Positions 5,542 through 37,710 of a stretch of DNA of 61,084 bases are shown here, one piece after another; position 1 is the stretch's first letter, and every line of letters begins with the position of its first letter. A program made the position numbers and the translations under genes. Below the pieces are notes generated by a model. That model saw only the letters and a list, made by a program, of their open reading frames with translations. It made no database searches and was not told the DNA's origin. The DNA is from a virus: the IMG/VR virus record IMGVR_UViG_3300032516_003835, positions 1 through 61,084 of that record. One strand, given 5' to 3'.

Positions 5542-5555
5542 GGGGCAACCTCCTA

Positions 5556-5936: not shown

Positions 5937-5938
5937 CC

Positions 5939-6046
5939 ATGCTAGCCTACGTTCTATGGGGCCTGCTTCTGGCCCTAGCTGTGAAAATCCTTCTATCCCT
6001 GAAGGACATCGACATCCATGGCCGCGTCAAGCTTCGACTGAAGTAG
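5939..6046 (+). CDS. Possible 35-residue membrane peptide on the opposite strand
   Basis: A plus-strand ORF starting MLAYVLWGLLLALAVKI and ending HGRVKLRLK: one transmembrane helix followed by a basic tail. GGAGGGAG lies upstream but about 12 bases away. It fills the otherwise empty stretch between the gene at 5556-5936 and the PGDYG-like gene and is divergent from both. Small single-helix peptides of this shape exist as toxins or regulators, but chance is not excluded. Confidence 0.3.
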   Translation: MLAYVLWGLLLALAVKILLSLKDIDIHGRVKLRLK

Positions 6047-6088
6047 CGTGACCGGGCCCGGCGCTCTCCGGGTCGTCCACGCATGGCC

Positions 6089-6490: not shown

Positions 6491-7383
6491 GGTCTCAATC
6501 TCCTTCCTCCCCAATCCGCGCGCCGGGCGATGACTCGCCAGTCGCGCTCGTTCTCCTCTACGCGCTTGACCCCGTCGCCGAGGGCGAGTTCCAGTTGGCG
6601 AACCTCATCCACCATGACCTGAAAGTCGGCGGACTCCAGGGCGAAGTGATGGTCAGGACCGGGACGCTCGGGGTTGTCTGTGAAGTGCTTTTCGATGACC
6701 TTCGCGCCCAAGGCTACCGCGCCGAGAACGTCGAGAGAGCCGGGCGCGTGGCTGCTGAAACCGAGGACGGCCTTGGGAAGCGCCTCCGCGTAGGTCTGAA
6801 GCACCTTCAGGTTCAGGTGACGGTAGGCGTCGGGGCTGCCGTCGTAGTTGAGGTTGCACTGCATGAGAACATGCGGGACTCCCTCATCGGCCAGGATGCC
6901 CGCCACGCACTGGACCTCGTGCGCGGTGGCGGCCCCGGTCGAGACGATGAGGGGCTTCCCCTTCCGGGCGAGGTAGCCCAGGAAGCCGAGCTCGACAAGG
7001 TCGCCGGAACCGACCTTGTAGGCGTGGACGTAGGGTTCCAGGGCGTCCGCCGCCGCTTCGTCGTAGGGCGTCGAGAGGAAATCGACTCCGGCCTGTTTGC
7101 AGACTCCGGACAGTGTCGGAATCCAGTCGAGCGGCGTCTCGGCCTTCTCGTAGACCTCGTAAAGCTCAGGCCGGCCGATAGAGGCGAACCCTTCCCGGCT
7201 GGCCAGGGTTTCGGCCTTGAAGTGCTGGAACTTGACGGCGTTCGCGCCGGCGATGGCCGCCAAGCGAATGAGATCCGAGGCGCGGTTAAGGACACCGTTG
7301 TGATTCGCTCCGATGTCGGCGATGAAGTAGACGGGGTAGCCGGGGCCGACACGGTGAAGCCGGGAGAGTTGAACCTCGGTCAC
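6478..7383 (-). CDS. NeuB-family nonulosonate synthase lacking the SAF domain
   Basis: A 301-residue enzyme of the sialic/legionaminic/pseudaminic acid synthase family, which condenses phosphoenolpyruvate with a 6-carbon acetamido sugar to a 9-carbon acid. The TIM-barrel motifs are present: FIADIGANHNG (the usual AEIG Glu is Asp, as in some SpsE-like members), AVKFQHFKAETLA, FLSTPYD, YKVGSGDL, LIVSTGAA, FSSHAPG and VIEKHFT, the last two carrying the metal-binding His residues. The protein ends at RADWGGRRLRPCPK, where the C-terminal SAF (antifreeze-like) domain of ~340-350-residue NeuB proteins would begin. GTG at 7383 overlaps the stop of the PseB-like gene and has AAGGAGG upstream. Confidence 0.9.
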   Translation of the reverse strand: MTEVQLSRLHRVGPGYPVYFIADIGANHNGVLNRASDLIRLAAIAGANAVKFQHFKAETLASREGFASIGRPELYEVYEKAETPLDWIPTLSGVCKQAGVDFLSTPYDEAAADALEPYVHAYKVGSGDLVELGFLGYLARKGKPLIVSTGAATAHEVQCVAGILADEGVPHVLMQCNLNYDGSPDAYRHLNLKVLQTYAEALPKAVLGFSSHAPGSLDVLGAVALGAKVIEKHFTDNPERPGPDHHFALESADFQVMVDEVRQLELALGDGVKRVEENERDWRVIARRADWGGRRLRPCPK

Positions 7384-8366
7384 GAAACCATCCTCCTTAC
7401 CTCTTCGGCTGTCATGAGGTTCTCGGGCGAGTCGCTTGTGTAGCGCCAGCCGGGGGGCCGGATCTCCGGACGATCGGCGGTCGCCTTGGGCCCGTATCCC
7501 ACGACATGCCACGGGAACTGCGGCTCGATGACGTAGCGGGAGCCCCGGTCTGTCGTCCGCCGGGCCTCCTCCTCCGAGATCAGGCACTCGTGGAGCTTCT
7601 CGCCGGGCCGAATGCCGGTAACCCTGACCCAGGCCGCCGGCGCCACGACCCGGGCCAGGTCGGCGACAAAGCAGGACCGGAGTTTGGGGACGAATATCTC
7701 ACCGCCCTCGCCACTGAAGAGGGCCCCCAGAACAGCCGCGGCGGCGTCCGCCGGCGTCAACCAGAACCGGGTCATGCCCTCCGCCGTGAGGGTGACCTGC
7801 CCATCCGCGGCGGCCTGCCTCCGCCAGAGTTCCACGACCGATCCACGGCTCCCGAAGACATTGCCATAGCGAATGACACTGAAGCGCGTCCGGCGGTCTC
7901 CCGCGTAGGCGTTCGCCCCGATGAAAAGACGCTCGGCGCAAGCCTTGGTCGTCCCGTAGAGGTTTGCCGGCTCGACGGCCTTGTCTGTGCTCACGGCCAC
8001 CACCCGGCGCACATCCCGCTCCAGGGCGGCCTCGATCACGTTCTCGGCTCCGAAAACATTCGTCCGAACGGCCTCGAAGGAGTCGTACTCACAGGCTTCG
8101 ATCCGCTTCATGGCCGCCGCGTGGATGACGTAGTCCACTCCCCGGAAGGCCATGAGGAGGCGGTCCTTGTCGCGGACGTCGCCCAGGAAGAAGCGTAGGC
8201 GGTCGTCATCCTCGAACTCGGCTCTCATCTGGGCTTGCTTGTACTCATCGCGCGAGAGGATGACGATCCGGGCCGGGCAGTCTTCGCGGGGCAGGAGCTC
8301 CCGGACGAGGGCGTGACCCAGGGTGCCGGTGCCGCCGGTAATGAGCAGGGTCTTGTCGGTGAGCAT
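7380..8366 (-). CDS. UDP-GlcNAc 4,6-dehydratase, PseB-like SDR enzyme
   Basis: A 328-residue extended SDR of the PseB/FlaA1 type, which converts UDP-GlcNAc to the 4-keto-6-deoxy sugar (with C5 inversion in PseB). The NAD-binding LLITGGTGTLGHAL, FFLGDVRDKDRL, HAAAMKRIEACEY, TNVFGAENVIEAA, VSTDKAVEPANLYGTTKA and RYGNVFGSRGSVV motifs are all present; Tyr and Lys of the catalytic pair lie in YGTTK. GEKLHECLISEEE near the C-terminus is typical of this subgroup. It is the first gene of the sugar block, about 25 bases after a terminator hairpin, with GGGAGG before the ATG. Confidence 0.92.
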   Translation of the reverse strand: MLTDKTLLITGGTGTLGHALVRELLPREDCPARIVILSRDEYKQAQMRAEFEDDDRLRFFLGDVRDKDRLLMAFRGVDYVIHAAAMKRIEACEYDSFEAVRTNVFGAENVIEAALERDVRRVVAVSTDKAVEPANLYGTTKACAERLFIGANAYAGDRRTRFSVIRYGNVFGSRGSVVELWRRQAAADGQVTLTAEGMTRFWLTPADAAAAVLGALFSGEGGEIFVPKLRSCFVADLARVVAPAAWVRVTGIRPGEKLHECLISEEEARRTTDRGSRYVIEPQFPWHVVGYGPKATADRPEIRPPGWRYTSDSPENLMTAEEVRRMVS

Positions 8367-9395: not shown

Positions 9396-10310
9396 CTAGC
9401 CCGAAACCCGGTTCGCCTTCCACTCCGCGTAGGTCATCCAAGGGATGACGCCTTCTCCCCTGGCCCGGCGGACCGTAGGTTCGTAGCCCGCGATCTTGCC
9501 ACGTAGCGCGCATCGGCAATTGCAGTCCTCTTCTGGCACCCCGAAACCGCCTGGGGCTTTGGCTTTCAACCCCCGGATTTCGAAGAACCCGTCCACCGGC
9601 ACCGTCTGGCCGTCGAGTTCCTGATGACTCAATCTGGTGCGTTCGTCCAAAGTTGCACTCCACGTTTTCATGGTCGGCACCCCGCGCCGCTCCGCCTGCT
9701 CCAGGGCCGCGAGTCTGCCCTCCTGCGTCACCCGATGGGCCTCGGTCTGCGCCACCCTGATCGCCTTGGCCGCGTCGCCGTCGAGAACCCCCTTGATCCG
9801 CCGGGCCATGTCGTCGTAACCCTCGCCCCGGATGAGGCCCTGGGTGATCTCGGATCGGATCCGGGTGACGACCTGGGCCCGGTTGGCCTGCAGACGCTCG
9901 GAGAGTTTCATGCCTGAGATCGGGTTCTGGACCGAGGCCGCGATCGTGGCCGGGTTCAGCAGCGTCCAGCCGAGCCGGGCCTGGGCCTGCCGCTCCAGGG
10001 CGTAGGCCGTCCGCCAGTAAGCCTCGGAGTAAGCGTTGCCGGAGCCGACCGTGACCGCCTTGCCGGCCTGGGCGTAGAGGCGGTTCATCTCGGCCCTAAC
10101 CGAGGCGGTCAGGCTTTCCAGGCGCCGGTACTTGGCGAGCTCGACATAACTCATCTTCCCGCCCACGGCGTAGCGGGCGGCGTAATCAGCGAGCGTGCCG
10201 CGCAGTTCGCGCAGCGTCCGGGCATAGGCGCGGAGGACCTCGCGTTGCGTGCCGGCGCTGAGGCGCTCGATGGCCCGCTCGCCCTGCAGGAGATCTCGCT
10301 CCAGACTCAC
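9396..10310 (-). CDS. Head morphogenesis protein, SPP1 gp7/MuF family
   Basis: A 304-residue minor head protein. The C-terminal MuF-like region holds the family pattern: AIRVAQTEAHRVTQEGRL, then TWSATLDERTRLSHQELDGQ and the Cys motif EEDCNCRCALRG. The N-terminal ~150 residues are helical. In SPP1 gp7 binds the portal and DNA and is packaged in the head. GTG at 10310 has AGGAGG upstream. The position after the portal gene is standard. Confidence 0.9.
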   Translation of the reverse strand: MSLERDLLQGERAIERLSAGTQREVLRAYARTLRELRGTLADYAARYAVGGKMSYVELAKYRRLESLTASVRAEMNRLYAQAGKAVTVGSGNAYSEAYWRTAYALERQAQARLGWTLLNPATIAASVQNPISGMKLSERLQANRAQVVTRIRSEITQGLIRGEGYDDMARRIKGVLDGDAAKAIRVAQTEAHRVTQEGRLAALEQAERRGVPTMKTWSATLDERTRLSHQELDGQTVPVDGFFEIRGLKAKAPGGFGVPEEDCNCRCALRGKIAGYEPTVRRARGEGVIPWMTYAEWKANRVSG

Positions 10311-10322
10311 GGCGCAGACCTC

Positions 10323-10715
10323 CTACCGCTGGCGCTTCAGACAGACGAGGACCCGAGCGAGGTCGTCAATAACTTGCTCTTGGAGCGCTTCTTCGAACGA
10401 GTCTTTCGCGGTTTGCCAGGTATGCAGTTTCGCGTGGAGGAGTTCGTGGACGACGTCGGCCTCCATGTCCTGCACGAAAACCTCAGCGCCCGTGCCGCAC
10501 TCGTCCGGGCAGTCGAGCGGACTCCTGACCTCCAGGAGACCCGTTTTCTTCTCCCATGTGTAGACGAGTGAGGCCGAACTGTCCGGGGTCATGTTCCGGG
10601 CCCGGCCGATGCGGACCGCGAACTGCCAATCTCCCAGCCCCAGCCGGTCCTGCCACTCCCGGACACACTTGGCCAGACCATCCTCGTCGAACACGACCGC
10701 CTTCGGCTCACTCAC
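10323..10715 (-). CDS. Small zinc metallopeptidase-like protein (minimal zincin)
   Basis: A 130-residue protein with the zinc-protease motif HELLHAKLH near residue 90 and a preceding Asp/Glu helix; the third ligand is probably a Glu in SFEEALQEQ. The Cys pair CPDECG is ~20 residues upstream of the motif. The layout resembles SprT/WSS1-like minimal zincins found in phages. GTG at 10715 overlaps the portal stop by 8 bases with GGAG upstream. Between portal and MuF it may act as a head-maturation protease, since no other prohead protease is visible here; that role is inference. Confidence 0.6.
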   Translation of the reverse strand: MSEPKAVVFDEDGLAKCVREWQDRLGLGDWQFAVRIGRARNMTPDSSASLVYTWEKKTGLLEVRSPLDCPDECGTGAEVFVQDMEADVVHELLHAKLHTWQTAKDSFEEALQEQVIDDLARVLVCLKRQR

Positions 10716-12273
10716 CGGCCGCTCCGCTCTGATCCGGGCTACCCTGGGGAGGCTCGTCGCCATCGTCGGTTGGTTCCTCCTTCTCGCCCTCGCCCTCAGC
10801 CGGCACTCGATCCAGGTCCACCCTGCCCTCAGCCGCCATGTCGCGAAGCTCCTTCTCCGAGTCGGTCACGAAGGACAGGAGGTCGAGGCGCGTCTTCTCG
10901 GACACCAATCCCTTGAGCAGGCCCGTGGTCTGGGCCTCATCGTTGAGGTTCAGAGGGAAGTTTCGGGTAAACTGCATCGTGACCGCCTTGTAGTCGATCG
11001 CCTGGCCGCGCTTCCGCCAGACCGTGGCCAGGACCTCGAACATGCGCCGGCTGGCGGCCGAGTGCTTGCGCTCGGTGGTGGCGCAGGAACTCTCCAGGTT
11101 AAAAAGTTTGAACTTCAGGGCTATACCGCTTACGGTGCCCCCGAACGCCTCGTCGTCGAAATTGACCGACTTCGCGAAACGAAGAATATTCCTGTCGAGC
11201 CTGTCAAGGTGGTGCTCAATGATCGCGTCATCGAGGGATTTGGTGAGGAACCTGATCTCGTGGGGCTGACCGCCGGCGGCCGTCGGGATGATGAGAATGC
11301 CGGTCTTCCGGGCCCGCTCGATAACGTCGTCCCCTAGATCGACGCCATAGGCGGCCATGTAGGCGAGCCGAAACTGCTCGATCTCGGAATTCACGTCGGA
11401 GACGGCTCGGTCGTAGGCGTCAATCAAAGCGACGACCCTGGAGGCGTCGCCCTGGCGCTCATCATTGTTCGGGAACGCAATCAGCGGGCACAGGTCGAAC
11501 AGGTGCGGCCGGGGATTCGCGGGCGCCCCGCTGTCGAGTTCGTAGTCTCCGCCCGAGCCCTGGACGTAGTAGTAGGCGTGGCTCGGGGTGTACCACTCGG
11601 CCCGCCAAACGTCTACCCACTCGCCGCCCCGGAAGAGCGGGGCCTCATAGTAGCGGAGGGCGTGCTCGGCCTCCCAGGCGTTGCCCGTGGTGACCGGGAT
11701 AACCTCCCAGGGCGGGATGGCCATGCAGTAGGGTAGACCGTCAGCCTGCGCGTCCCCGCCTCGCACATAGAGCAGGCGGGCGCCGTAGCCGCAGATCGCC
11801 TCCATCTTGCCGGTCTCGGCGTCCAGGTCGGCCAGGTTGGATCGCAAGACGAAGTCCTGCAAGGTCTTGTTGTGGTCGGCGTAAGCCGGGTTCTCGTCGG
11901 CCGTGATCTCACGGGGTCTCTGTCCGAGGAGGCGACCCATAAGACCGGGCTGGGTCTCGGTGACGTAACCGGTCTTATCTAAACCGTAGCTGACGGGCCG
12001 ACCCATGAAGTACCCTAACTTGGTGTCGATGATCGCGCCAAAAAAATCGTTGGCTAATTGGGCGTTCACTTTCGTCGTCGAATACTCGAAGGTGCGGCCA
12101 TAGATCGGCACCCCGTCCCGAGTCGCGCAGTAGCGGCGGTAGAGGGCGGCCATGGCGTCCCGGCTAGCTTGGTGGGCGGCGATGAGCGATCCCACCACGG
12201 CCGCGGTGGGCTGACCGCCATTCCCGGCGAGTTCCGCCTGGGCTTGCAGGATGGCTCGGGACAGACTGTCCAT
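10708..12273 (-). CDS. Portal protein (SPP1 gp6-like)
   Basis: A 521-residue portal forming the dodecameric DNA channel at one capsid vertex. Family signs are YYRRYC-like N-terminal helices, NAQLANDFFGAIIDTKLGYF followed by GRPVSYG, and a long acidic C-terminal tail (EGEGEKEEPTDDGDE). Length and position between terminase and MuF genes agree with Phage_prot_Gp6 portals. Confidence 0.9.
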   Translation of the reverse strand: MDSLSRAILQAQAELAGNGGQPTAAVVGSLIAAHQASRDAMAALYRRYCATRDGVPIYGRTFEYSTTKVNAQLANDFFGAIIDTKLGYFMGRPVSYGLDKTGYVTETQPGLMGRLLGQRPREITADENPAYADHNKTLQDFVLRSNLADLDAETGKMEAICGYGARLLYVRGGDAQADGLPYCMAIPPWEVIPVTTGNAWEAEHALRYYEAPLFRGGEWVDVWRAEWYTPSHAYYYVQGSGGDYELDSGAPANPRPHLFDLCPLIAFPNNDERQGDASRVVALIDAYDRAVSDVNSEIEQFRLAYMAAYGVDLGDDVIERARKTGILIIPTAAGGQPHEIRFLTKSLDDAIIEHHLDRLDRNILRFAKSVNFDDEAFGGTVSGIALKFKLFNLESSCATTERKHSAASRRMFEVLATVWRKRGQAIDYKAVTMQFTRNFPLNLNDEAQTTGLLKGLVSEKTRLDLLSFVTDSEKELRDMAAEGRVDLDRVPAEGEGEKEEPTDDGDEPPQGSPDQSGAAGE

Positions 12274-20342: not shown

Positions 20343-20846
20343 CTAGCTCGCCTCCTCGATCTCAACCTGTGCCCCGATCCCCTGGAGTTCGCCGATCAGC
20401 GCGGCCACGCGGGCCCGCAGCCCCTCCGGCACGTCCGGCGGTAGCGCGATCCGGACGGAGAGGCCGGAGGGCGGACCCTCCTCCAGGGGCCGGAGCAGGG
20501 GCCGGACCTCAACCTCCGCCCGCTCGTTCGGGCTGTACCACATGTCCGCCCGCAAACTCTTTACCAACACGTCGTCGCGGTAGGCGATCGTGTTCAAGCC
20601 GTCCTCGATCGCCTTGGTGATGTTCAGGAGGTCAGGCACCTGGCCGCGCCGCTCCAGGAACGCCCTCAGAACCAACTGCACCGGGGTGAGGAGCGGCTCC
20701 CGGCAGTGCGGCCGGGCGCACCAGCCGACCGTCTCCTCGTAGTCCCGCGTCTTCCGGGGCGTGTAGACCCTCGCCGATCGGCCCTCGACAGCCACGCGCG
20801 GGCGGGCCTTGGGGACCGGCCGGCCGGGAACCGTGAAGGAGGTCAC
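20343..20846 (-). CDS. RusA-like Holliday junction resolvase
   Basis: A 167-residue protein beginning FTVPGRPVPKARPRV, the standard RusA N-terminus. VPDLLNITKAIEDGLNTIAY followed by RDD gives the acidic catalytic residues of RusA endonucleases. It resolves branched DNA during replication and recombination before packaging. It overlaps the stop of the methyltransferase gene. Confidence 0.88.
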   Translation of the reverse strand: MTSFTVPGRPVPKARPRVAVEGRSARVYTPRKTRDYEETVGWCARPHCREPLLTPVQLVLRAFLERRGQVPDLLNITKAIEDGLNTIAYRDDVLVKSLRADMWYSPNERAEVEVRPLLRPLEEGPPSGLSVRIALPPDVPEGLRARVAALIGELQGIGAQVEIEEAS

Positions 20847-21640
20847 GACCCCACCTCCTCAAAGAGCCCGGCCTGGACGGGTTCGCCGAGCCGTCTCTTG
20901 CGCGACTTCTCGACAGGGTCGCCCCGCAGCGCGGCGCCCGCCCCGGCCGTCGCGAGCAGGCTCCGCTTCAGAGCCTCGACCGTTCCGAAGCCCCCGTCCT
21001 GGAGGACCCGGCACAACTCGTCCACTACCGGCAGGCCCTCCGGCGTGACCATGGAGAGGATGCCGGGAACGTTCTCCATGACCATCGTCTTGGGCCTCAT
21101 CTCCAGGACCAGGCGGGCGAACTCGAAGACCAGGCTGTTCCGGGGGTCCATGACGTCCTGCTTGCCCGAGATAGAGAACCCCTGGCAGGGCGGGCCGCCG
21201 CAGACGCAGTCGAGCTCGCCCACCTCCAGGCCCAGGGCGTCCAGAATCTCGGCGCCCGTTACCTTGCGGACGTCGCCGAGCCAGAAGTGACCGACGCCGG
21301 GAACATCCGGGTTGTGGCTGATCCAGCCCTGACCCGCCCGGGTGCCGTCGGCGTGCTTCTGGGCGACCTTGTTCGCGCGCTCCCCGTCCTCCGGTGTCAC
21401 GTAGTGGATCTCGCACGGGTAACTGCCGAGGTTCAGCAGATAGGTCAGCATCGAGTAGGGGTCGTTATCCACCCCGGCCAGGACCTCGAAGCCGCCCTGG
21501 ATCATGCCGAGGGTGAATCCGCCCGCCCCGCAGAAGAGGTCTACGCACGTCGGCCGGTGGGCCACCCGCTCGGGGAGCCAGAGGCCCTTGGCGCTCCGCG
21601 CGAACCCGCCGGCGGGGTCGATCATCGGCTCGCCGCTCAT
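20843..21640 (-). CDS. DNA cytosine-C5 methyltransferase, C-terminally short
   Basis: A 265-residue enzyme with AdoMet motif I DLFCGAGGFTLG, motif IV GGPPCQGFSISG with the catalytic Cys, and motif VI MENVPG. The usual motif VIII (QxRxR), the target-recognition region and motifs IX-X are not visible; the protein ends EPVQAGLFEEVGS about 90 residues after motif VI. Typical members are 320-400 residues. It may be a minimal phage form, need a partner, or be inactive. ATG at 21640 has GGAGGTG upstream; it overlaps the M23 gene end by 4 bases. Confidence 0.85.
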   Translation of the reverse strand: MSGEPMIDPAGGFARSAKGLWLPERVAHRPTCVDLFCGAGGFTLGMIQGGFEVLAGVDNDPYSMLTYLLNLGSYPCEIHYVTPEDGERANKVAQKHADGTRAGQGWISHNPDVPGVGHFWLGDVRKVTGAEILDALGLEVGELDCVCGGPPCQGFSISGKQDVMDPRNSLVFEFARLVLEMRPKTMVMENVPGILSMVTPEGLPVVDELCRVLQDGGFGTVEALKRSLLATAGAGAALRGDPVEKSRKRRLGEPVQAGLFEEVGS

Positions 21641-22662
21641 GGTCCCACCTCCGCCACGAACCGCAGGGGGTTTTCGGGGATTCCCGAAACGCGGCACTCC
21701 CAGTGGACATGAGGGCCGTTCGTTCGACCGGTCATCCCGACCCAGCCGATGATGTCGCCCTGGCGCACGGCCCGGCCCATTCCGGGGATGACCACCCCGA
21801 CCCCCTCGTTGACGGAGCCGAGGTGGCCGTAGATCGTTTCGAGGATGGCTGGCTCGCCGAGCGTCTCGGCCGGAATGTGGACTAGACGGAGATTGAGCCC
21901 GAGAATCGCGTCGTGGGCCGAGGACACGATCACCCCGTCAACCGGGGCGACGATCGGCGTGCCCTCCGGGGCCGCTATGTCGATCCCCCGATGGGGGCCT
22001 AACGGCCCGCCATACCGTTGGCTCATCCGGCCGATGATGGGCAGGGACCAGTCGGCGACGATGGTCCTCTCCCCCGCCGCGGTCGCGAGCGTGGCCGGCT
22101 CCAGATAGCCGTCGAGGCCAAGCACCGGGACGAGGACCTCCACCCCCGCCGGCATGACTCCCGGGCCCAGGGCGTTGGCGGACATGAGTTCGGCGAGGGT
22201 GACGTCATGTCCGGGCCCCGGCAGGCCAAGGTAGGCGCCGGCGCGCTCGGCGGTCCAGTAGTCCGCGAGTTCGCGCAGGGTCTCCCCGCCACGAGGTTGA
22301 TAGATGGCCAGCTCGGCGCCCGGCTCGGGCGCCCGCACGATTGCCCCGTCAGCGAGCGCCAGGCCGGGGTTCAGCACCCGCAGGCAGCGGGTCGTGGCCC
22401 GCGCGGTCTCCGCCACCGAGGCCCAGGTGTCGCGCGGGCCCACCTCGTAGGTTAGCACCCGCACCGCGGCCTCCGCCGGCGTCTCGGGTTCCCGATCGGG
22501 GACCGTCCTTGTCAGAACGCCCTCCTGCCGGGTAGCGAAGGCGGGGAATTCGCCGTAGGGCAGGGCGATCAGGAGCGCGCCGAGAAGCAGGGCTCCGATG
22601 AGGGCCCGGGCCGGCGCGAAGCGGAACCTGATCTCGACCTGGCGTGATAGTAGTCTCGACAA
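21637..22662 (-). CDS. Membrane-anchored LysM-M23 peptidase
   Basis: A 341-residue protein from a TTG at 22662 with GGGAGG eight bases upstream. An N-terminal hydrophobic helix (RALIGALLLGALLIALPYG) is followed by two LysM-like segments (VGPRDTWASVAETARATTRC and a second near GGETLRELADYW). The C-terminal M23 zinc endopeptidase domain has HRGIDIAAPEGTPI, GHLGSVNEG and GPHVHWE carrying the metal ligands. It would cut peptidoglycan peptides outside the membrane. Its place in the early/middle operon next to a methyltransferase, far from the lysis genes, is odd. Possible roles are superinfection exclusion or cell-wall remodelling. Confidence 0.8.
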   Translation of the reverse strand: MSRLLSRQVEIRFRFAPARALIGALLLGALLIALPYGEFPAFATRQEGVLTRTVPDREPETPAEAAVRVLTYEVGPRDTWASVAETARATTRCLRVLNPGLALADGAIVRAPEPGAELAIYQPRGGETLRELADYWTAERAGAYLGLPGPGHDVTLAELMSANALGPGVMPAGVEVLVPVLGLDGYLEPATLATAAGERTIVADWSLPIIGRMSQRYGGPLGPHRGIDIAAPEGTPIVAPVDGVIVSSAHDAILGLNLRLVHIPAETLGEPAILETIYGHLGSVNEGVGVVIPGMGRAVRQGDIIGWVGMTGRTNGPHVHWECRVSGIPENPLRFVAEVGP

Positions 22663-22691: not shown

Positions 22692-23036
22692 TTAGGACGC
22701 CAGCGCCACAAGCCGGCTCAGGGCCTGGTCGCAGGAGAGTTGAGCCTGGAGCGTGGCCAGTACCGCCCGAACCGCCTCGTACCCGTCCCGGGCATCCGCC
22801 ACCGCGATTCTCTCCGTGGCCGTCGCCGCCCGGAGTTCGGCCGCCCGGACCTCCGCGTTTTTCCCCACGATGCGGTCCGGGGTCAGCAGTAGTGCTGCTT
22901 CGGTATCCCTCAGCCGGTTCTCGGCGGCCTCCACCTGCGTCGCCCGGTGGAGGACCGCCCTCTCTGCCGCGTCGATGTGATCCGGCAGACCCACCAACCG
23001 TCCGATGAGGTCCGCTCTTTCCTGGGTCACGTCCAT
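22692..23036 (-). CDS. Hypothetical coiled-coil protein, paralogue of the 33301-33636 product
   Basis: A 114-residue helical protein. It shares with the product of 33301-33636 the pattern IGRL-x-x-LP, AER-x-VL, DRI-x-GKNAE and RAA-x-LR in the same order and a final LAS. Both begin MD. Function unknown; both lie next to DNA-metabolism genes, so a role as a recombination or replication accessory protein is possible. Confidence 0.7.
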   Translation of the reverse strand: MDVTQERADLIGRLVGLPDHIDAAERAVLHRATQVEAAENRLRDTEAALLLTPDRIVGKNAEVRAAELRAATATERIAVADARDGYEAVRAVLATLQAQLSCDQALSRLVALAS

Positions 23037-23039
23037 CGT

Positions 23040-25892
23040 CTACTCGACTCCCTTCTGGGCCGCCGTCTGGCAGCCGGTCTTCTTGTCGCAGACCGGGCAC
23101 CGGAACGGGGCCTGGCCCGAGATCACATGGGGGCAACACTCCTGGCCCGAGGTCTGCCGCTCCTCGTTGCAGGTCCGGCACTCCGCCTCGGTCACCGGTT
23201 TCCCGTCCCTCGCCGGGCAGGGGCCGCACGTCGCCCCCACCTCGGTCACGAAAGGGACGGCTTCCTCCTTGGGGGCGGGGACAGTGGCTTCGGGGCAGGC
23301 CGCCGGGCCAGGGCAGCGGTACGGGCCATGGCCGGCGAGGACCCGGACGCAGCAACCCGATTCGGGCCGATTGCCGGTGCAGCAGGTCTTGCACTCCGCT
23401 TCGGTCGTCGCGTCCTTGCTCGCGGGGCAGACGGTGATCGGGGCTGGTTCGGCATCCGACTCCCCGCCGACCGCCGTCGGGCAGATGTCGAGGCCGCCTG
23501 GGCAGTGGAACGGGGCGGTGTCAGACGTGACCCGGTAACAGCACGCTGCCCGCCGTCCCTTGGCGACCCGGTTGCCTCGGCAGCAGGCCAGGCATTGTTC
23601 CGGGGTCGTCAGAGTCTCGCCCTTGGAGCGGAGTGGGCACTTGGTTACCGCCGGATTCGGGCCGTAGCTCGCCTTCTCGACGGACAGCGGGGCGAGCTCG
23701 GGCTGGTCGGCAACGGTAGGCCCGCCCTCCTCGAACTCGGGATGGCTCCGCACCGCGTGGCTGGGATGGATGTCGCAGTGTTTCTGGTCGCAGCGCTTGC
23801 GGTCTCCCTTGCAGTTCCTGGCGGCCTTGGACGATTTGGACTCGGCAGCCTGGGACGGATTGGCCCGGAGGTCGATGGCCTCGGCCTCGAACGCGGCGAG
23901 TAGCGTCCCAGTTAGGGGCTCCGCTCCCGTGTCAAGGGATTCGGGCGTTTCGTCAATGGCCTCGGTCGGAGCGCGGTCTAGCTTGCACGCGTCGCAGTCG
24001 CAGTCAAGATCGTGGGGCTGCCGTTGATGCGCGCGCAGGCACGGCACTAGCTTGCAGTCGGCGCAGTTCCGCTCGTCGCAGCCGCCGTCCTCCGAGGGGC
24101 CAGGGGTAAGGGACGCCCCCTCTTGGTCCGCGGCGTCCGCGTCCGGATCATGGTTCGGGTCCGCCGGCGATTCCGGGTCCGTCTGGGGGTCTGTTTCCTC
24201 CTCCCCCGCCGGGTTCACCAGGCGAGAGGCGTCGAGTGTCACCCCGTCCTCCGGCTCCGGGGCCAGGCCGATGTTGATCGCGATGGTGTTCGCCAGGACG
24301 CATCCCGGATCGGACAGGTAGCCGTCGGCCCCGAGGAGGAGGTATCCCACCGCCAGGGTGGTCAGGGTCCGGGTCGAGAGGCCCAGGAGGGCCTCGGAGT
24401 AGTTCTCGGCCGTGGAGGCGTGGTGCTGGCATTCCAGGAACACGCCACCGAGGACCGCCGCGACATAGTCAAGGCCCGACTCACCCTCCAGGAGGGCAAG
24501 ACTCACCAGGCGCATCTCCGGATGGGAGAAGCCCTTCTGGTTACTCGCGATCCGGTGCCGGAGGTAACTTTCCACCCGGCCGAGGTGCCGCGCCCGGATC
24601 TCGGCTCGCATGGCCTCCTCGACCCTGGAACGCTCCTCGGATTCGGCCAGTTCCCTCACGGCGGCGGCCTGGGTCTCTCGGACCTGGGTCTTGCGGCAGT
24701 CGGACTTCGGTTTCCCGCACAGGCCATCCTTGATGTCGGGACAGGCGGCCGGGCATGTCCGGAGGGGCCGGGGCAGGTAGCCCACGGCAGGCGGGGCGTC
24801 GGCAACCGGCGAGGGTTCCGCGGCCTTCGGGTCCGGCTGGGCCGGGGCGGTTCGCTTGGGTCGCTCCGCAGCGGCCTTGCCTCCGGCCTCCTTCTTCGCG
24901 AGCCAACAGGGCCGGTCCATGCACAGGTTCCGCTCGTAGACCCGCTCCTTCTGGTCGCATTTCCTGCACTCGGGGAACGTCTCGACCCCATCCAGGACGC
25001 GGCCGTTAGCCCAGAGGACCGTCTGGACACGATCCCGGACGATCGCGACGGATACCGATACCGGCTCCTCGGCCGGAGCCGAACCGGGCTGGGGCTCCAA
25101 TTCCCTGGCCACCCGGGCCGCCAGGTCGGGGTAACGTATCAGTCTGTGAGTTTCCAGGGCCGCGCTGGCCGAGAGTATTCCGCAACGAATGAGGTCCTGG
25201 ATCGGATCGGGTAGGGTCAGGAGGCGGCCGCGGTTACTGACCCACTCCTGGCTCTTGCCCCGGATTCGGGCGATCTCGCTCTGTTTCAGCCCGTGGGTCT
25301 CGGCGAGGTCCTTCATGGCCCGCGCTTCCTCCAGAGGGCTCAGGTCCTCGCGGTGGATGTTCTCGACGAACCGGAATTCGGCGATCTGCCGGGGCGTGAG
25401 GTCCCTAACCTGGCAGGGAACTCTCTCCAGCCCGGCCTCCTGCGCGCCAAGTAGCCTTCTGTGACCGGCCACCAGGTACAGGGGTTTCTCGGCCGCCGGG
25501 CCGGTAAGCGTGACGATCAGGGGCTCGATGACGCCGTGGTCTTTGATGGAGGCCACGAACTCCGGCTTGACGGTAGTCGCCTCGCGGATGTTTTGGTCAA
25601 CCTCGATGTCGGTTATCAAGGCATCCTCCGTCCCGACAGTGCGGGGCGCTGGCATGTCAGTCACTCCCTTCTCTGGCTCGCCGACCGCTTTCCAGCCCTT
25701 GAACTTGGCCCGGTCGTCTAGGTCCATCTGGGCCTTGCCCTGGGTCGGCTGCATCGGGAGGGCGGGCGAGCAGACCCTCTGCAGTGATCCGGAGGGCTTG
25801 CGCCGGAACGTCCCCCAGGACCGCCCGCCGGAGATACCGTCATGGACGAACATCTCCCGGCCGTCCGTGTCGAGGTAGGTCCGGGCGCTCAT
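23040..25892 (-). CDS. Large ParB-like protein with tandem cysteine-rich C-terminal repeats
   Basis: A 950-residue protein if started at ATG 25892 (GGAGG upstream); 871 residues if started at ATG 25655 (AAGGGAG upstream). Order of parts: (1) ~70 residues resembling a stand-alone small phage protein (MFVHDGISGGRSWGTF); (2) a ParB/Srx-type N-terminal domain with LYLVAGHRRLLGAQEAGL and FRFVENIHREDLSPLEEA, then a helix-turn-helix; (3) CRKCDQK...CMDRPCW, a Cys segment often seen in phage ParB-like proteins; (4) a helical region and a long acidic linker; (5) several Cys clusters and three tandem repeats of the type CP..T..EC..CC.GNR...CC.RV...P..CPG..CP. It probably binds DNA and several zinc ions. 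Specific function unknown. Confidence 0.8.
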   Translation of the reverse strand: MSARTYLDTDGREMFVHDGISGGRSWGTFRRKPSGSLQRVCSPALPMQPTQGKAQMDLDDRAKFKGWKAVGEPEKGVTDMPAPRTVGTEDALITDIEVDQNIREATTVKPEFVASIKDHGVIEPLIVTLTGPAAEKPLYLVAGHRRLLGAQEAGLERVPCQVRDLTPRQIAEFRFVENIHREDLSPLEEARAMKDLAETHGLKQSEIARIRGKSQEWVSNRGRLLTLPDPIQDLIRCGILSASAALETHRLIRYPDLAARVARELEPQPGSAPAEEPVSVSVAIVRDRVQTVLWANGRVLDGVETFPECRKCDQKERVYERNLCMDRPCWLAKKEAGGKAAAERPKRTAPAQPDPKAAEPSPVADAPPAVGYLPRPLRTCPAACPDIKDGLCGKPKSDCRKTQVRETQAAAVRELAESEERSRVEEAMRAEIRARHLGRVESYLRHRIASNQKGFSHPEMRLVSLALLEGESGLDYVAAVLGGVFLECQHHASTAENYSEALLGLSTRTLTTLAVGYLLLGADGYLSDPGCVLANTIAINIGLAPEPEDGVTLDASRLVNPAGEEETDPQTDPESPADPNHDPDADAADQEGASLTPGPSEDGGCDERNCADCKLVPCLRAHQRQPHDLDCDCDACKLDRAPTEAIDETPESLDTGAEPLTGTLLAAFEAEAIDLRANPSQAAESKSSKAARNCKGDRKRCDQKHCDIHPSHAVRSHPEFEEGGPTVADQPELAPLSVEKASYGPNPAVTKCPLRSKGETLTTPEQCLACCRGNRVAKGRRAACCYRVTSDTAPFHCPGGLDICPTAVGGESDAEPAPITVCPASKDATTEAECKTCCTGNRPESGCCVRVLAGHGPYRCPGPAACPEATVPAPKEEAVPFVTEVGATCGPCPARDGKPVTEAECRTCNEERQTSGQECCPHVISGQAPFRCPVCDKKTGCQTAAQKGVE

Positions 25893-26275
25893 CGGCGGGC
25901 CTCCGTCCGGGCCTGAATGTCCAGGACGACCTTCTGGAGTTCGCGGGCGGCCTTGGCCAGGCGGATGATGTCGCCGAGGTTCCGGCCGCCCCGCATGTAG
26001 AGGGTCGGGTCGAGGAACGGGGCGACGGCCTCCGCGTGATCGGCCTTCCGGATGAACGCCTCCAGGGGCATCTCGGCCACCAGGGTGCCGAGAAGCAGCA
26101 GCTGCTGTTGGGTCACTTCGTACTCGGCGGCGGAGAGGGGAACGATCAGGTCCTCGGGGCTCGGTGGCTCCGGACACGGAGTAACCGCCACGGGCAGGTC
26201 GGACGGTTTCGCCGTTGGGTGGCGCCTGCGGATCTCGGCGTCGAGTTTGGGGTCGAATGTGCGCTCATCAGCCAT
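25889..26275 (-). CDS. Hypothetical protein
   Basis: A 128-residue helical protein; its stop overlaps the start of the ParB-like gene. No family recognised. Confidence 0.6.
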   Translation of the reverse strand: MADERTFDPKLDAEIRRRHPTAKPSDLPVAVTPCPEPPSPEDLIVPLSAAEYEVTQQQLLLLGTLVAEMPLEAFIRKADHAEAVAPFLDPTLYMRGGRNLGDIIRLAKAARELQKVVLDIQARTEARR

Positions 26276-26462
26276 TGCGGCCCACCGCCTTGTCGTAGGC
26301 GGCGGTCTTCCTGCCGCACCTGGCGGCCTCCGCCATGAGTTCCTGGTCGCCGACGACGCCGGCCACGTGCCACCGTGCGGCGCTGCGTAGGTCTCGGGCC
26401 GCGTCGATGGCTTTCTTGGCCAGTCTCAACCTGGCGACTAGTCCGCTTGGGGTGTCAGGCAT
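26268..26462 (-). CDS. Hypothetical protein
   Basis: A 64-residue helical protein starting MPDTPSGLVARLRLAKKAID and ending DKAVGRNG. The last codons match those of the upstream gene (DKAVGRDA), reflecting a short DNA repeat shared by the two gene ends. Confidence 0.55.
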   Translation of the reverse strand: MPDTPSGLVARLRLAKKAIDAARDLRSAARWHVAGVVGDQELMAEAARCGRKTAAYDKAVGRNG

Positions 26463-26877
26463 CCCGGCCCACCGCCTTGTCCCAGGCCGCCAGGGCCTTG
26501 CGCGCTGCGATGACGACTGGCTGCTGCTCGGGATCGAAGTAGCCCATGTCGCCCGAGTCGGCCAGGTCGTAGTGGTCCTTGATGAAGCCCTTGAGGGCAT
26601 CCGCCAACCCCTCCATCGCCTTCAACCTCTCGACGACTCCCTGGCCGGGGTCGGGGGAAGCGAGGAGATCGCCCATGAACCTCCGGACCCAGGACAAGAG
26701 GTCGTCGCTCAACGTGGGGTTTGTGTCCCGGCAGGCTCCGGCGTAGGCCAGAAGCGCCTCGCGAGCCGCCGGATCCTTGTCCACGCGGAGGACGAAATAC
26801 TCCGCCGCAGGGTCAACCGGACGACCGCTGACTTTCTCGATGACGTACTTGCGATAGAGTCCGCGCTGCGCAGCCAT
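26455..26877 (-). CDS. Phage hypothetical protein (conserved YFVLRxDxDP type)
   Basis: A 140-residue protein containing YVIEKVSGRPVDPAAEYFVL then RVDKDPAAREALLAYA, a pattern I associate with conserved phage proteins of unknown function, here extended by a C-terminal helical domain. ATG at 26877 overlaps the upstream stop (TGATG). Confidence 0.65.
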   Translation of the reverse strand: MAAQRGLYRKYVIEKVSGRPVDPAAEYFVLRVDKDPAAREALLAYAGACRDTNPTLSDDLLSWVRRFMGDLLASPDPGQGVVERLKAMEGLADALKGFIKDHYDLADSGDMGYFDPEQQPVVIAARKALAAWDKAVGRDA

Positions 26878-29725: not shown

Positions 29726-30487
29726 TCATCGGCCGATCACCAGCCCTTCGGGGCGCTCCCTCGGCCTCGGTTCGGGCCAGACGAGGTTATCTTTGAAGAA
29801 AACCTTGGCGCCTTCGTCCCCCATTTGGTCCCTGGCGTCGAGCAGATCCCGGATCCACTCGGGCCTGGGAGCCACCGCTCCGGATCCGCTCTGGGCGCCC
29901 ACGACTATCCATCGGATATAGCCGCCGGCCCACATGCGCGGGTATGGTCCCAGGGATGGCTCGTAGCTCACCCAGAGGTTCGGGTGGGTCGTCAGCGGTA
30001 GGTCCCAGATGCGCCGCTCATCGGCCGGGCCGGTGTAGGTCGTTCCCGCCCAGCAGTTCTCGGGCAGGCTGAACTCGCCGTAGCGCCGGGAATTCTTGGT
30101 GAGGAGGAGAAAGGAGTGCCACGGGCAGTCGCGGATGACCTGGAGCACCTGGTCAATCCACTCGGACGGCACCCACTCGCCGAAGAGGTCGCCCATGTCG
30201 GAGACGAAGATGACCTCGCTTTTCCGCCGCCGGCCGGGTTCTCCGAGTCTATGGCTGTGGAACGTGGGCTCGAAACCGTAGCGGTAGCTGTCGGCCGCCG
30301 CGCCGCGCCTATAGCGAATCTCATGGAGACCGCCGCCCGGCTGGGTGCAGTCGTCGCCGAGGGTCGCCCGCCTCTGGAGGTTCTGGGCAATTCGCCTGGC
30401 GTAGCAGTAGGGGCACCCGTGGCGGCAACCCGTGATGACGTTCCACGACTCGTCCGCGTAGCCGATGGTGTCTCGGATGGGGTTCAT
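29726..30487 (-). CDS. DUF5131 family protein
   Basis: A 253-residue protein of the phage DUF5131 (Gp37/Gp68-like) family. The signature is near the N-terminus: WNVITGCRHGCPYCYARRIA, a CxxxCxYC cluster like that of radical-SAM enzymes. FVSDMGDLFGEWVP and a closing GAKVFFKDNL are also typical. A metal cluster is likely, but the reaction is unknown. ATG at 30487 has GGGGAGG. Confidence 0.88.
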   Translation of the reverse strand: MNPIRDTIGYADESWNVITGCRHGCPYCYARRIAQNLQRRATLGDDCTQPGGGLHEIRYRRGAAADSYRYGFEPTFHSHRLGEPGRRRKSEVIFVSDMGDLFGEWVPSEWIDQVLQVIRDCPWHSFLLLTKNSRRYGEFSLPENCWAGTTYTGPADERRIWDLPLTTHPNLWVSYEPSLGPYPRMWAGGYIRWIVVGAQSGSGAVAPRPEWIRDLLDARDQMGDEGAKVFFKDNLVWPEPRPRERPEGLVIGR

Positions 30488-33300: not shown

Positions 33301-33636
33301 CTAGCTAGCCAGCAGCCCCGCGACTGACCGCAGGGCGTCGAGCTCCGTCCGGAGGATCGTCAGGCGGGACATAGCCGCGGCGCGAGATAGCCGCGCCTCC
33401 CAGTCGGCCTGTTGTTCGTTCTGCGTCATCTGCCGTAACTGCGCCGCCCGGAGTTCTGCGTTCTTGCCGTCGATCCGATCGGTGAGGTATGCCTGGTCCG
33501 AAGCCGCGGTCAGTTCACACTCCATCTCGGCCAGGCGCTCGTTCTGAGCCAGAACGTCGCGCTCCGCGCCCGCTATCTCGGCGGGCAGAGCCAGAAGTCG
33601 GCCGATGACAGCCTCCTTTGTGCTGGGAATGTCCAT
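33301..33636 (-). CDS. Hypothetical coiled-coil protein, paralogue of the 22692-23036 product
   Basis: A 111-residue helical protein from ATG 33636 with AGGGGAGG upstream. It shares IGRL-x-x-LP, AER-x-VL, DRI-x-GKNAE and RAA-x-LR with the product of 22692-23036. It follows the SbcC-like gene. Function unknown. Confidence 0.7.
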   Translation of the reverse strand: MDIPSTKEAVIGRLLALPAEIAGAERDVLAQNERLAEMECELTAASDQAYLTDRIDGKNAELRAAQLRQMTQNEQQADWEARLSRAAAMSRLTILRTELDALRSVAGLLAS

Positions 33637-33662
33637 CGTTTTCACCTCCCCTGTCGTCTGGG

Positions 33663-35819
33663 TCATGCGAGCACCCTCACTTCCGAACCACCAGGCCCCT
33701 TGGTTACCTCGATCCGCTGGGGCAGGGCCTCGGCGAGCTCGGCTATGTGCGAGATGATGAGCACCTGGGCGAAATCGGCTCCCAGGGCCCGCGCGGCCTC
33801 CAGGAACCGCTGCCGTCCGCCGGGGTCCAAGCTCCCCAGTCCCTCGTCGATCACCAGGAGTTCGATCCGTCTCCCGGCGCGGCGGGCGAGGAGCTTGCTG
33901 ATCGCGACCCTCAACGACAAATCCACCTCGAACTTCTCGGCGCCGCTCCAGCACTCATAGGGTCGGCTGCCAAGTTCATCGGTGATGATGATGTCGAGGG
34001 TTTCAGCCATGGTGTGTTTCCCGGTCTCCCGCTGGGTGCTGAGTTGGAGGGACATCCTCCCGGCGGTCATGCGGCCCAGGAGTTCGTTCGCCCGGGCCTC
34101 GATCTCGGGGATGGCGGAGTCGATCAGAAGGGCCTGGACGCCGTTCCTGCTCCAGCAGGTGGCGAGTTTACCCCACGCGCCGGCCTCGGTCTCGGTCTGG
34201 GCCAGCGTGGCCCGGAGACCGGCCTGGCGTTCGGTAAGCGCGGCCAGGGCCTGGAGGCGGCCCTCGATGTGGCCGAGATCCCGTTGGAGAACACCCAGGG
34301 CCTGGCGGCAGCGCTCAGCCTCACCGGCGGCCGCCTCCCGGACGACAAGCGCCTGCGTCATGGCGGCCCGCTTCTCCTCGACTTCCTGGAGGCCGGCCGC
34401 GGCGGCGGCCTTCTCGCCCTCAAGCCGGGAGAGGTTCTCGGTAAACCTCCTCGATTGCTCGGCGAGTTCGGCGAGCGCCTGCTCGGCAAGGTCGGATTCG
34501 GCCCGGAAGCGGGCCTTGTTGGCGACGTCGGTGAGCTCGTTCCGGAGGGCCTGGTGGTGGCTGGGGTCGTAACCCAGAGCGGCGATCGCGGCTTCGATGG
34601 CCGAGATGCGCTCGGCCGCCGGCGGGATAGTCTGGCCCTCCAGCCGGCTTACCTCCGCCTGGAGATCTCCGATCCGGTCGGCAGCCCCCCTCGCGCTGGC
34701 CAGGAGTTTGCAGGTGGTCCGGTCCTCGCCGGCGCACGGCACCTCTCCTAGAAGCGCCGCGCGGTCCCTGGCGTCCCGCAGTTGGCTTGAGGCAACCGCG
34801 ATGGCCCGGCCCTTTTCTCCCTGCCACTGGCCCAGGATCTCCCGGGCCGCAGCGAGGTCAGCCGAGAAATCTCGTTCCCGGCCAACCGTGGCGTCGAGTG
34901 CAGCGATCTCCGCTTTCAGGGCCGCCTCCCGCTCGCAAGCGGCGAGGATGGTTGGCCGGTTGGCGAGGAGCTTCTGGGCTCGCTCGCGCTTCGGATCCAC
35001 GCTCGACAGGTCCAGCCGGGCCAGCGTGATCTGATTGCCCAGGGTAGACACCCGGTCGGACATCTCCTGGTAGCGGCCGGCCGCGGTCTGTAGTTCTCCG
35101 GCCCGCTGGGCGGCAGCCTCGAGGGCCGCGCCCGTAGCCTTAACCGCCTCCTCCGCCGGGGTGATTTGGCGTCGAATGTCCCCGGCCCGCTCTTCCAGCG
35201 CCGGCCGGTCCGCCAGTTGGGTCTCGATACTGGCGAGGTCTCGGCTGGCCGCGTCGGCTTCGGCCTGCTGGTCCCTACCCCGGCCCTTAGCGTCCTCCTG
35301 GAGCCGGTCGTAGAGGCCGAGTCCCAGGATGGAACCAAGGACCTGTTTCCGCTCGCCGGGGGTTTTGCGGGTGAACTCGTCCGCCCGGCCCTGGAGGATC
35401 ATGGAGGCCGAGACGAACGTGTCGTAGTCCAGGCCCAGGATTTCGACGATCCTGGCCTCCGTCGCCCGGATGGAGTCTCCGGTGAGCGGGGTCCAGATCT
35501 CACCGTCGAGCCGGGCGAGTTCTAGACCGCTCTTGCCCCCGCCCTGGAGACCTCGGGTGCGGATAACCCGGTAGGTGGCGCCTCCGAGGTCGAAGGCGAC
35601 CTCGACCGAACACTCCCGCGCACCCTGGCGGATCACGCCATCGACCTGGGGGGCGCGGCACTGGCCGAAGAGCGGCCAGAGGAGGGCATCGGTGCAGAGC
35701 GCGCTCTTGCCGCTGCCGTTCTCCCCGGTGACCGCGGCAAGTGCGATCTGGGAGAAATCCACCTCCGCCGCCTCGCCGTAAGCCAGGAAGTTATTGAGCG
35801 TGACCTTGCCGAGCCTCAT
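33663..35819 (-). CDS. SbcC/Rad50-like SMC ATPase
   Basis: A 718-residue ATPase that with the SbcD-like nuclease would process DNA ends and hairpins. Walker A is AAVTGENGSGKSAL near residue 35. Two coiled-coil arms flank a hinge with Cys residues (VPCAGEDRTTCKLL), possibly a zinc hook although not the standard CxxC. The C-terminal signature is in CWSGAEKFEVDLSLRVAISK, and Walker B is LLVIDEGLGSLDPGG. Its start overlaps the stop of the gene upstream by four bases. Confidence 0.9.
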   Translation of the reverse strand: MRLGKVTLNNFLAYGEAAEVDFSQIALAAVTGENGSGKSALCTDALLWPLFGQCRAPQVDGVIRQGARECSVEVAFDLGGATYRVIRTRGLQGGGKSGLELARLDGEIWTPLTGDSIRATEARIVEILGLDYDTFVSASMILQGRADEFTRKTPGERKQVLGSILGLGLYDRLQEDAKGRGRDQQAEADAASRDLASIETQLADRPALEERAGDIRRQITPAEEAVKATGAALEAAAQRAGELQTAAGRYQEMSDRVSTLGNQITLARLDLSSVDPKRERAQKLLANRPTILAACEREAALKAEIAALDATVGRERDFSADLAAAREILGQWQGEKGRAIAVASSQLRDARDRAALLGEVPCAGEDRTTCKLLASARGAADRIGDLQAEVSRLEGQTIPPAAERISAIEAAIAALGYDPSHHQALRNELTDVANKARFRAESDLAEQALAELAEQSRRFTENLSRLEGEKAAAAAGLQEVEEKRAAMTQALVVREAAAGEAERCRQALGVLQRDLGHIEGRLQALAALTERQAGLRATLAQTETEAGAWGKLATCWSRNGVQALLIDSAIPEIEARANELLGRMTAGRMSLQLSTQRETGKHTMAETLDIIITDELGSRPYECWSGAEKFEVDLSLRVAISKLLARRAGRRIELLVIDEGLGSLDPGGRQRFLEAARALGADFAQVLIISHIAELAEALPQRIEVTKGPGGSEVRVLA

Positions 35820-36352: not shown

Positions 36353-36512
36353 TGGCCACCCCCTTCTCCTTGCGCAGGCAGGTCAAACAGACGAACCCTT
36401 CCCGCGTGTCCCTCCCGACCTCGCGCCGGTACCCGAACCACTCAATGGTTAGGCGGCAGCGCACGCAGGTAGCCACATGAGGCCGGTCGATACCAGCCCA
36501 GGCCCTAACCAT
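36342..36512 (-). CDS. Small zinc-ribbon protein
   Basis: A 56-residue protein starting MVRAWAGIDRPHVATCVRC, with a second pair CLTC, giving a CxxC...CxxC ribbon. AAGGGG is 9 bases upstream of the ATG. It overlaps both neighbours by 8-11 bases. Function unknown. Confidence 0.6.
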   Translation of the reverse strand: MVRAWAGIDRPHVATCVRCRLTIEWFGYRREVGRDTREGFVCLTCLRKEKGVASGG

Positions 36513-37710
36513 CTCCGGCCACCCCTTCCTGGGTGCGGGCCCGGACGAGGAGGCCGTCTCGGTCTTGGGCCAGGGCTGGGGTGGCCTCGATATAGGCCCC
36601 CAGCGCTTGCAGGGGTCCCATGGCGGTCGAGATCCCGTCTCCTCGGGTCCGGGTGATCCGCTCGACCTCGACGATGGGCGGGCACCAGTGGAGGATGGCC
36701 CCGAGCTCGCGGGCGTGGTCCTCGATGAGGGGCCAGTCCATGAGCCTGGCCTGTTGCTCTGTCAGGCGGGCACGGACCCGGACAATGCCGCCGGCAGTGT
36801 GCCGGAAGGAGAGATCGACCGCGTCGCAGATGCTGACTGCGGGTGCCGCCTCGGCGCGGGCGTCAACCTCCACCGTGACCAGGTTCGTGGCCGGCAGGGT
36901 GTGAAACTCGGTCTCAGCCACCTGTCCGGCCTGGAGGTCCAGGACCCAGAACCCGCGGTCGTCCTTCTCCTCGCCCCAGTTGGCGCGGAGGAAACTTCCC
37001 GGGTAGCCGATCCAGGGGCCGCAAGGACCGTACTGGATGACCTGCGGCTTGTGAATGTGACCGAGGCAGACGGCCTGGAACACGTCCGGGAACGAATCCC
37101 GGGCCAGGACCGGCTCGGAGGTCATGCGGATCGACTCATCAGAGGAGGCGACACAGCCGTCTACGGACAGATGCCCGACTAGGATGGCCGGGAGGTTATG
37201 CTGGGCCGCCTCCGCCGCCAGGCCCCGGATGACGTCCGCGAGCCTCGCCGACATGGCCTGATGGAGGGCCACCGGACTCGCGCCCCGACCCTCCTCGGTG
37301 TTGGCGAGCCAGGATTTCGAGGCGCCGGGAATGCCGGCGATGGTGAGGCCGGGGAGAGTGACGACCAGGGGGCTGCAGATGACGCCGACCCTGGGGATGT
37401 CGATGGCGGAGAGGATCCCGGTAGGCCCCAGGCGGTCAGGTCCGTCGCCATCATGGCTCGGGGTGCCGGGGATACAGACGACCTGAGCCACGCAGCCCAG
37501 GAGCGTCAGTAGTTCGACAACGTCCTTGATCTCGGCCGGGCTGGGGCGACTGCGGTCCCAGAGGTCGCCGGCCACGACGATCACGTCGGGGTGGATCTCC
37601 CTGGCCCGCTCGGCGAGGGACTGGGCGACGTCGCGCCACTCCCTGGCCCGATCGAGGCCGGAGAGCGGCGGAGGGCAGCAGTGCCAATCCGCCGTCAGGA
37701 GAATCCGCAT
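36505..37710 (-). CDS. SbcD/Mre11-like exonuclease
   Basis: A 401-residue calcineurin-type phosphoesterase, partner of the SbcC-like ATPase. Metal-binding motifs are TADWHCC at the N-terminus, VVAGDLWDRS, IPGTPSHDGDG (in place of the usual GNHD), LVGHLSVDG and CLGHIHKPQ. The ATG at 37710 overlaps the upstream stop. Confidence 0.88.
   Translation of the reverse strand: MRILLTADWHCCPPPLSGLDRAREWRDVAQSLAERAREIHPDVIVVAGDLWDRSRPSPAEIKDVVELLTLLGCVAQVVCIPGTPSHDGDGPDRLGPTGILSAIDIPRVGVICSPLVVTLPGLTIAGIPGASKSWLANTEEGRGASPVALHQAMSARLADVIRGLAAEAAQHNLPAILVGHLSVDGCVASSDESIRMTSEPVLARDSFPDVFQAVCLGHIHKPQVIQYGPCGPWIGYPGSFLRANWGEEKDDRGFWVLDLQAGQVAETEFHTLPATNLVTVEVDARAEAAPAVSICDAVDLSFRHTAGGIVRVRARLTEQQARLMDWPLIEDHARELGAILHWCPPIVEVERITRTRGDGISTAMGPLQALGAYIEATPALAQDRDGLLVRARTQEGVAGDG

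Follow-up and report, generated by a model that had tools for sequence, protein, structure and literature searches.

A ParB-like protein of a temperate siphophage with a Cys4 cluster and a tail of tandem cysteine repeats

Results

The ParB-like gene and its surroundings

The window (the whole stretch of DNA analysed, 61,084 bases) is a single virus record of the temperate siphovirus type, in which an SPP1-type portal, terminase, head genes, tape measure, integrase and repressor were present. Among 50,697 phage records, none was a near relative in DNA of the stretch 9000-33000. The ParB-like gene belongs to an early module on the minus strand. A helicase loader and DnaB flank it on one side; on the other lie a small phage gene that is conserved (22692-23036), an M23 peptidase (21637-22662), a C5 cytosine methylase and RusA. 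This position, between the DnaB and the RusA/cytosine methylase genes, suggests a role in early regulation or in replication/recombination rather than in partition. The coordinates, strand and frame proposed from the sequence alone were correct: 23040-25892 on the minus strand translates without stops to 950 residues. The features of the gene were as follows.

23040..25892, minus strand: ParB-like gene, 950 residues with 48 Cys, starting MSARTYLD; stop-free frame with coding composition throughout
25683..25892, minus strand: N-terminal extension, residues 1-70, weak match to phrog_31924
25353..25562, minus strand: ParB_N/CTPase-fold domain, residues 111-180, with GHRR and ENIHRED (PF02195, TIGR00180, PDB ParB/Spo0J/Noc)
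25158..25349, minus strand: ParB helix-turn-helix, residues 182-245 (Pfam PF17762, KorB PF08535)
24894..24968, minus strand: Cys4 cluster CRKC...C-MDRP-CWLAK, residues 309-333 (alignments with relatives; family profile 111-341)
24696..24755, minus strand: second small Cys cluster CPAACPDIKDGLCGKPKSDC, residues 380-399, four Cys (sequence)
24258..24692, minus strand: helical region, residues 401-545, two Cys (AlphaFold2; weak profile match)
23985..24080, minus strand: Cys cluster CDERNCADCKLVPC...CDCDAC, residues 605-636, CxxxxC-type (sequence)
23775..23813, minus strand: Cys cluster CKGDRKRCDQKHC, residues 694-706, CxxxxC-type (sequence)
23475..23642, minus strand: Cys repeat 1, residues 751-806, eight Cys (pairwise alignments; profile E 2e-26 on the window)
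23289..23432, minus strand: Cys repeat 2, residues 821-868, eight Cys (pairwise alignments; repeat profile)
23064..23234, minus strand: Cys repeat 3, residues 887-943, first CC replaced by a single C, with extra CxxC pairs (pairwise alignments)

The concentration of more than 40 Cys in the last part of the protein, reported in the sequence-only reading, was borne out: 45 of the 48 lie after residue 300, 35 in residues 561-950 and 25 in residues 751-950. An acidic linker, bearing the clusters at 605-636 and 694-706, joins the helical stretch (401-545) to the three repeats. The open frame, coding to its end, led us to set aside a frameshift or misassembly; GC3 was 0.86 in residues 741-950, the same as in the remaining gene. 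A disulphide-rich secreted protein was set aside too, this being a ParB with a helix-turn-helix (HTH) encoded inside a replication module.

Several other genes of the window deserve mention. The small genes 22692-23036 and 33301-33666, both on the minus strand, are paralogues belonging to the uncharacterised phage family phrog_31827 (E 7e-12 and 1.5e-19); the former lies directly downstream of the ParB-like gene and the latter directly downstream of SbcC. This SbcC-like gene (33663-35819), whose best-covering phage counterpart was the SbcC of Moorella phage MTATph1 (31% identity), forms a pair with an SbcD-like gene at 36505-37710 (minus strand; phrog_77 and phrog_100). The C5 cytosine methylase homologue (20843-21640, minus strand) is only 265 residues long, its family matches end in the N-terminal half of the profiles, and it is possibly a truncated or short variant. 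Two neighbouring minus-strand frames have 36-base ends that are 83% identical (26268-26303 and 26455-26490), both encoding a shared C-terminal A-x-DKAVGR-x-x peptide. A DUF5131/phrog_2045 protein (29726-30487, minus strand) matched the PADLOC candidate-defence models PDC-M41B and PDC-M30B. Genes for a class-III aminotransferase, a cytidylyltransferase, an aldo/keto reductase, NeuB and a Polysacc_synt_2 dehydratase (2358-8366, minus strand) have the major head protein (661-1518) on one side and the minor head/portal genes (9396-12273) on the other; they look like a nonulosonic-acid pathway, an unusual cargo within a head-gene cluster.

The ParB part

The front of the protein is a normal ParB-HTH, as the sequence-only reading had it: ParB_N (PF02195) scored 43 bits against a cut-off of 26.3 (E 4e-11), HTH_ParB (PF17762) 54 bits against 22.6 (E 2e-14), and NCBIfam TIGR00180 101 bits against 58. 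Solved ParB, Spo0J, Noc and KorB chains in the PDB were matched by sequence and fold over residues 111-262, and a PRTRC ParB profile matched the ParB_N-HTH part only. The residues of the nucleotide motifs were present (AGHRR and ENIHREDL), with G143, R145, R146 and N178 invariant across 47 sequences. AlphaFold2 was confident over ParB_N-HTH (residues 111-245, pLDDT mostly 77-97) and predicted helices at 401-450, 457-484 and 495-540 (pLDDT about 50-85); residues 401-545 gave a weak profile match to the C-terminal helical region of relatives (E 0.026 in 1,000 sequences). Residues 6-70 were co-linear with positions 7-69 of the 77 in the phrog_31924 profile (E 0.0067), and residues 1-70 are possibly a small fused phage domain, judging by this match.

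The protein has the NTP motifs and HTH in common with the canonical ParB, Spo0J and Noc clamps; it differs from them in having 700 extra residues and in that neither the ParA-binding motif nor the C-terminal dimerisation domain was detected. The latter was missing among its Pfam matches, a Pfam search found no nuclease domain in it, and the ParA-binding motif [LFI]G[KR]G[LFI] was absent from its sequence. A motif search of the six frames of the window, whose record may be incomplete, returned no ParA-type Walker motif (KGGxGK[ST]). Palindromes in the window were no commoner than expected by chance and none was repeated, in a comparison that would miss a single or imperfect parS-like site.

The Cys4 cluster and its relatives

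The Cys4 at residues 309-333 has the spacing C-x2-C-x11-C-x4-C-W-x2-K-K. Relatives were collected by a scan with a four-sequence alignment whose search patterns were drawn from the ParB part rather than the Cys4; this gave 212 viral relatives, of which 80 were kept. The Cys4 (C-x2-C ... C-x4-C-[FW]-x2-K behind the HTH) was present in 54 of them. The rows of the Cys4-family alignment were picked for carrying the motif, so the invariance of its Cys4 columns is partly due to selection; the protein of the window was not picked in this way, and the family profile hit its residues 111-341 as a single match (E 4e-42). A viral ParB of 538 residues aligned over the whole 560-residue family model (E 1e-13). 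Plasmid proteins shared the cluster as well: it was in register in a Comamonas plasmid protein and in the plasmid ParBs of Myxococcus (pYRE) and Hymenobacter (BRD128), which carry the same Cys4 as the ParB-like protein, the plasmid ParBs at 25-30% identity overall. KorB, PRTRC ParB and plasmid ParB have ParB_N and HTH in common with the ParB-like protein and lack its Cys-rich tail, and the first phage ParBs obtained by tblastn were mostly of the chromosomal type, without Cys clusters.

Among phages, Acidovorax phage Aval gp06c, Variovorax phage VarioGold VG_p35 and the viral loci L071-L150 share ParB_N, HTH and Cys4 (CxxC...CxDxxC[FW]xxK) with the ParB-like protein, and have long tails and a helical region to which its own may correspond. 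None of these carries the CC repeat, and no parA is annotated next door in Aval and VarioGold. VG_p35 is listed as a ParB-like protein, without mention of zinc (PMC9658991). The arrangement ParB_N-HTH-Cys4-helical region is a widespread architecture of phage and plasmid ParBs. The Cys4 of one relative (L076), scanned alone, had no Pfam match. Relatives also show a C...C....C..H set near the place of the second cluster (380-399), a likeness of position.

The relatives were poorer in Cys. The 54 Cys4 relatives had a median of 8.5 Cys per protein and a maximum of 21, against 48 here; their densest 200 residues held at most 14 Cys, against 25 in the ParB-like protein. A CxxC[GR]C...C...C[SA]W...CxxC module forms the C-terminal end of five of the 80 relatives. 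The long ParB-like gene of L076 (5836-8600) has a tail with several different Cys/His modules, including the CxxCxC...CxxC end module and PF24623 (Phage_zn_bind_8), a putative DNA-binding phage zinc finger. In being a small Cys/His module placed C-terminally in a ParB-like protein of a phage, this last is comparable with the CC repeats, to which it gave no match. The L076 tail is a parallel case of tail growth, and these relatives indicate that small C-terminal Cys modules are a recurrent habit of the family.

Three diverged cysteine repeats

The repeat region (residues 751-943) consists of three diverged copies of about 50 residues each, confirming the three similar terminal repeats noted in the sequence-only reading. 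Pairwise local alignment scores were 100, 68 and 97, against means of 31-36 for shuffled sequences; they exceeded shuffles of the same composition by about 6-11 standard deviations, and none of 2,000 shuffles scored as high. Fourteen columns were invariant across the repeats, seven of them Cys, and an eighth Cys was found in repeats 1 and 2 only. Each pair of repeats kept all of its 7-8 aligned Cys, an outcome with a probability of 0.0005-0.003 given the overall identity. The repeat motif, a pattern derived from these same copies, was counted three times in the window, where shuffles gave an expectation of 0.00. Since the DNA identity of the copies is only 54-65% and every aligned Cys is kept, recent slippage is disfavoured, and from the sequence the repeats look like an old duplication with the Cys held by selection. 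The AlphaFold2 model of one repeat was poor (pLDDT 48).

Searches for the repeat unit elsewhere

The repeat unit had no match in Pfam (PF24623 included), PHROGs, NCBIfam or the PDB, where the best results were short sub-threshold pieces; a match to a known zinc-finger family, which the sequence-only reading had named in advance as the result that would overturn it, was looked for here and not obtained. Profile searches likewise found no family for the clusters at 605-636 and 694-706. Homology of the repeats to the C-terminal CxxCxC...CxxC module of relatives was rejected, direct comparison having given no match. In tblastn searches the tail had two chance matches in cultured phages (E 9) and none in plasmids. 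Every match of two repeat-specific DNA patterns in all viral contigs translated to unrelated short frames, and one such pattern run on 84,980 species genomes also matched only unrelated short frames. The repeat profile, which recovered the window itself as a positive control (E 2e-26), found nothing in the 50 whole records of viral relatives and only chance-level matches in about 1,530 genomes from five phyla (Planctomycetota, Myxococcota, Actinomycetota and the phyla of a Clostridiales and an Armatimonadetes genome). Protein scans of viral contigs with the whole protein, the tail, the middle or the ParB part returned nothing; they were considered insensitive and given no weight, because a DnaB control query returned nothing either. 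A scan of genome contigs with the repeat alignment relied on a single short pattern and was weak. The repeat is an orphan within the scope of the collections searched, in which exact patterns miss diverged copies, records very near that of the window may be left out and metagenome contigs lie outside the scans.

Discussion

What is ordinary in this protein is the Cys4 cluster, and what is unusual is the size of the tail and the repeat unit. The Cys-rich part is not a single uniform block, being made up of the Cys4, a second cluster, a helical stretch, an acidic linker, CxxxxC-type clusters and the repeats. The proposal that no such architecture had been described holds for the repeat unit, which remained unmatched in the collections searched, but not for the ParB_N-HTH-Cys4-helical plan, widespread in phages and plasmids; nor did we find support for the view that no phage protein is built in this manner, as several relatives carry C-terminal zinc-finger-like modules, one of them PF24623. 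Of the functions offered at the outset, a zinc-rich binding scaffold is still the best reading, its zinc being suggested by the CxxC pairs and conserved Cys.

Our preferred interpretation, to which we give a probability of roughly 55%, is that the protein is an orphan (ParA-less) ParB of the Cys4 group, which is common in phages and plasmids and whose Cys4, behind the HTH, resembles a zinc knuckle; it would be one belonging to a temperate siphophage and acting as a CTP-switched clamp whose multi-zinc tail grips nucleic acid or a partner. As its sequence shows, it joins a ParB fold having the NTP-motif residues to an HTH, a Cys4 and three Cys repeats; metal binding and function we infer. Speaking against this interpretation are the poor AlphaFold2 model of a repeat, the adjacent CC pairs, which are atypical for classical zinc fingers, and the lack of a Pfam match to the canonical dimerisation domain of ParB. 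Somewhat more doubtful than even, in our estimation, is the further proposal that the repeats form an undescribed metal-binding domain family (CC...CC, eight Cys in about 50 residues), added in tandem to a CTP-switched DNA clamp.

ParB, Noc and KorB are CTP-binding proteins that use the HTH to load at a site and then become closed, sliding clamps. KorB in particular, as a CTP sliding clamp, exerts long-range repression (PMC11790492). By analogy with these proteins, the N-terminal part would take up CTP and, once loaded by its HTH at a specific DNA site, close and slide. The Cys4 and each cluster of the tail may hold zinc, as their CxxC pairs and conserved Cys suggest, and the 45 Cys after residue 300 would suffice for some 11 sites of four Cys, with no more than two in each repeat. 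The tail would then be a flexible chain of small zinc modules carried by an acidic linker, holding DNA or RNA non-specifically or recruiting a partner wherever the clamp sits. Binding of nucleic acid by the tail is putative, and what the tail binds is the least certain step. The gene neighbourhood would place the protein in early regulation or replication/recombination and not in partition.

A different use of the tail is possible, albeit with clearly lower probability: a hub for protein interaction or host targeting, in which the zinc modules would be structural knobs binding proteins of host or phage (anti-defence, RNA polymerase or replisome), with the ParB part serving only to bring the tail to DNA. 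Anti-defence or phage-host roles have been suggested for phage ParB fusions by Kaljevic et al. (PMC12704722), the tails of relatives differ widely, as expected of fast-changing interaction surfaces, and the repeat was seen only in this ParB-like protein; nevertheless, no partner or defence association was seen (PADLOC gave a weak match to the ParB part only), and a tail module of a relative is annotated as DNA-binding. An NTP-regulated DNase or nickase of the ParB/sulfiredoxin nuclease type, with zinc modules binding its target during the processing of phage DNA or the degradation of host DNA, seems improbable to us. ParB-like domains of polyvalent phage proteins and Osa have been reported or proposed as DNases (PMC5512222) and recombination genes adjoin the locus, but the closest matches were HTH-bearing sliding clamps (ParB, Noc, KorB) and not the DdrB/nuclease type, and the Pfam search of the protein revealed no nuclease domain.

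A shade more improbable is an ordinary plasmid-type partition protein, segregating a phage that is extrachromosomal for part of its life. This would agree with the ParB_N and HTH domains and the TIGR00180 match; against it stand the integrase and repressor, and the failure to find a ParA-like Walker motif (in a single motif search of a record that may be incomplete), a ParA-binding motif or repeated parS-like palindromes. The idea of a metal store or redox buffer, similar to a metallothionein, draws on the Cys density (25 in 200 residues) and is very improbable indeed: a store needs no fusion to a DNA-binding protein, and the conservation of non-Cys residues (P, T, R, G, V) and of the repeat order points to a folded unit.

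ParB-like proteins occur commonly in phages, and for most of them an explanation is still wanting. To these, the present work adds a Cys4 motif found in the majority of the long relatives sampled from phages and plasmids, and an extreme tail that has gathered small putative zinc modules. Should this tail bind nucleic acid, the protein would offer a testable picture of an orphan ParB clamp working without ParA.
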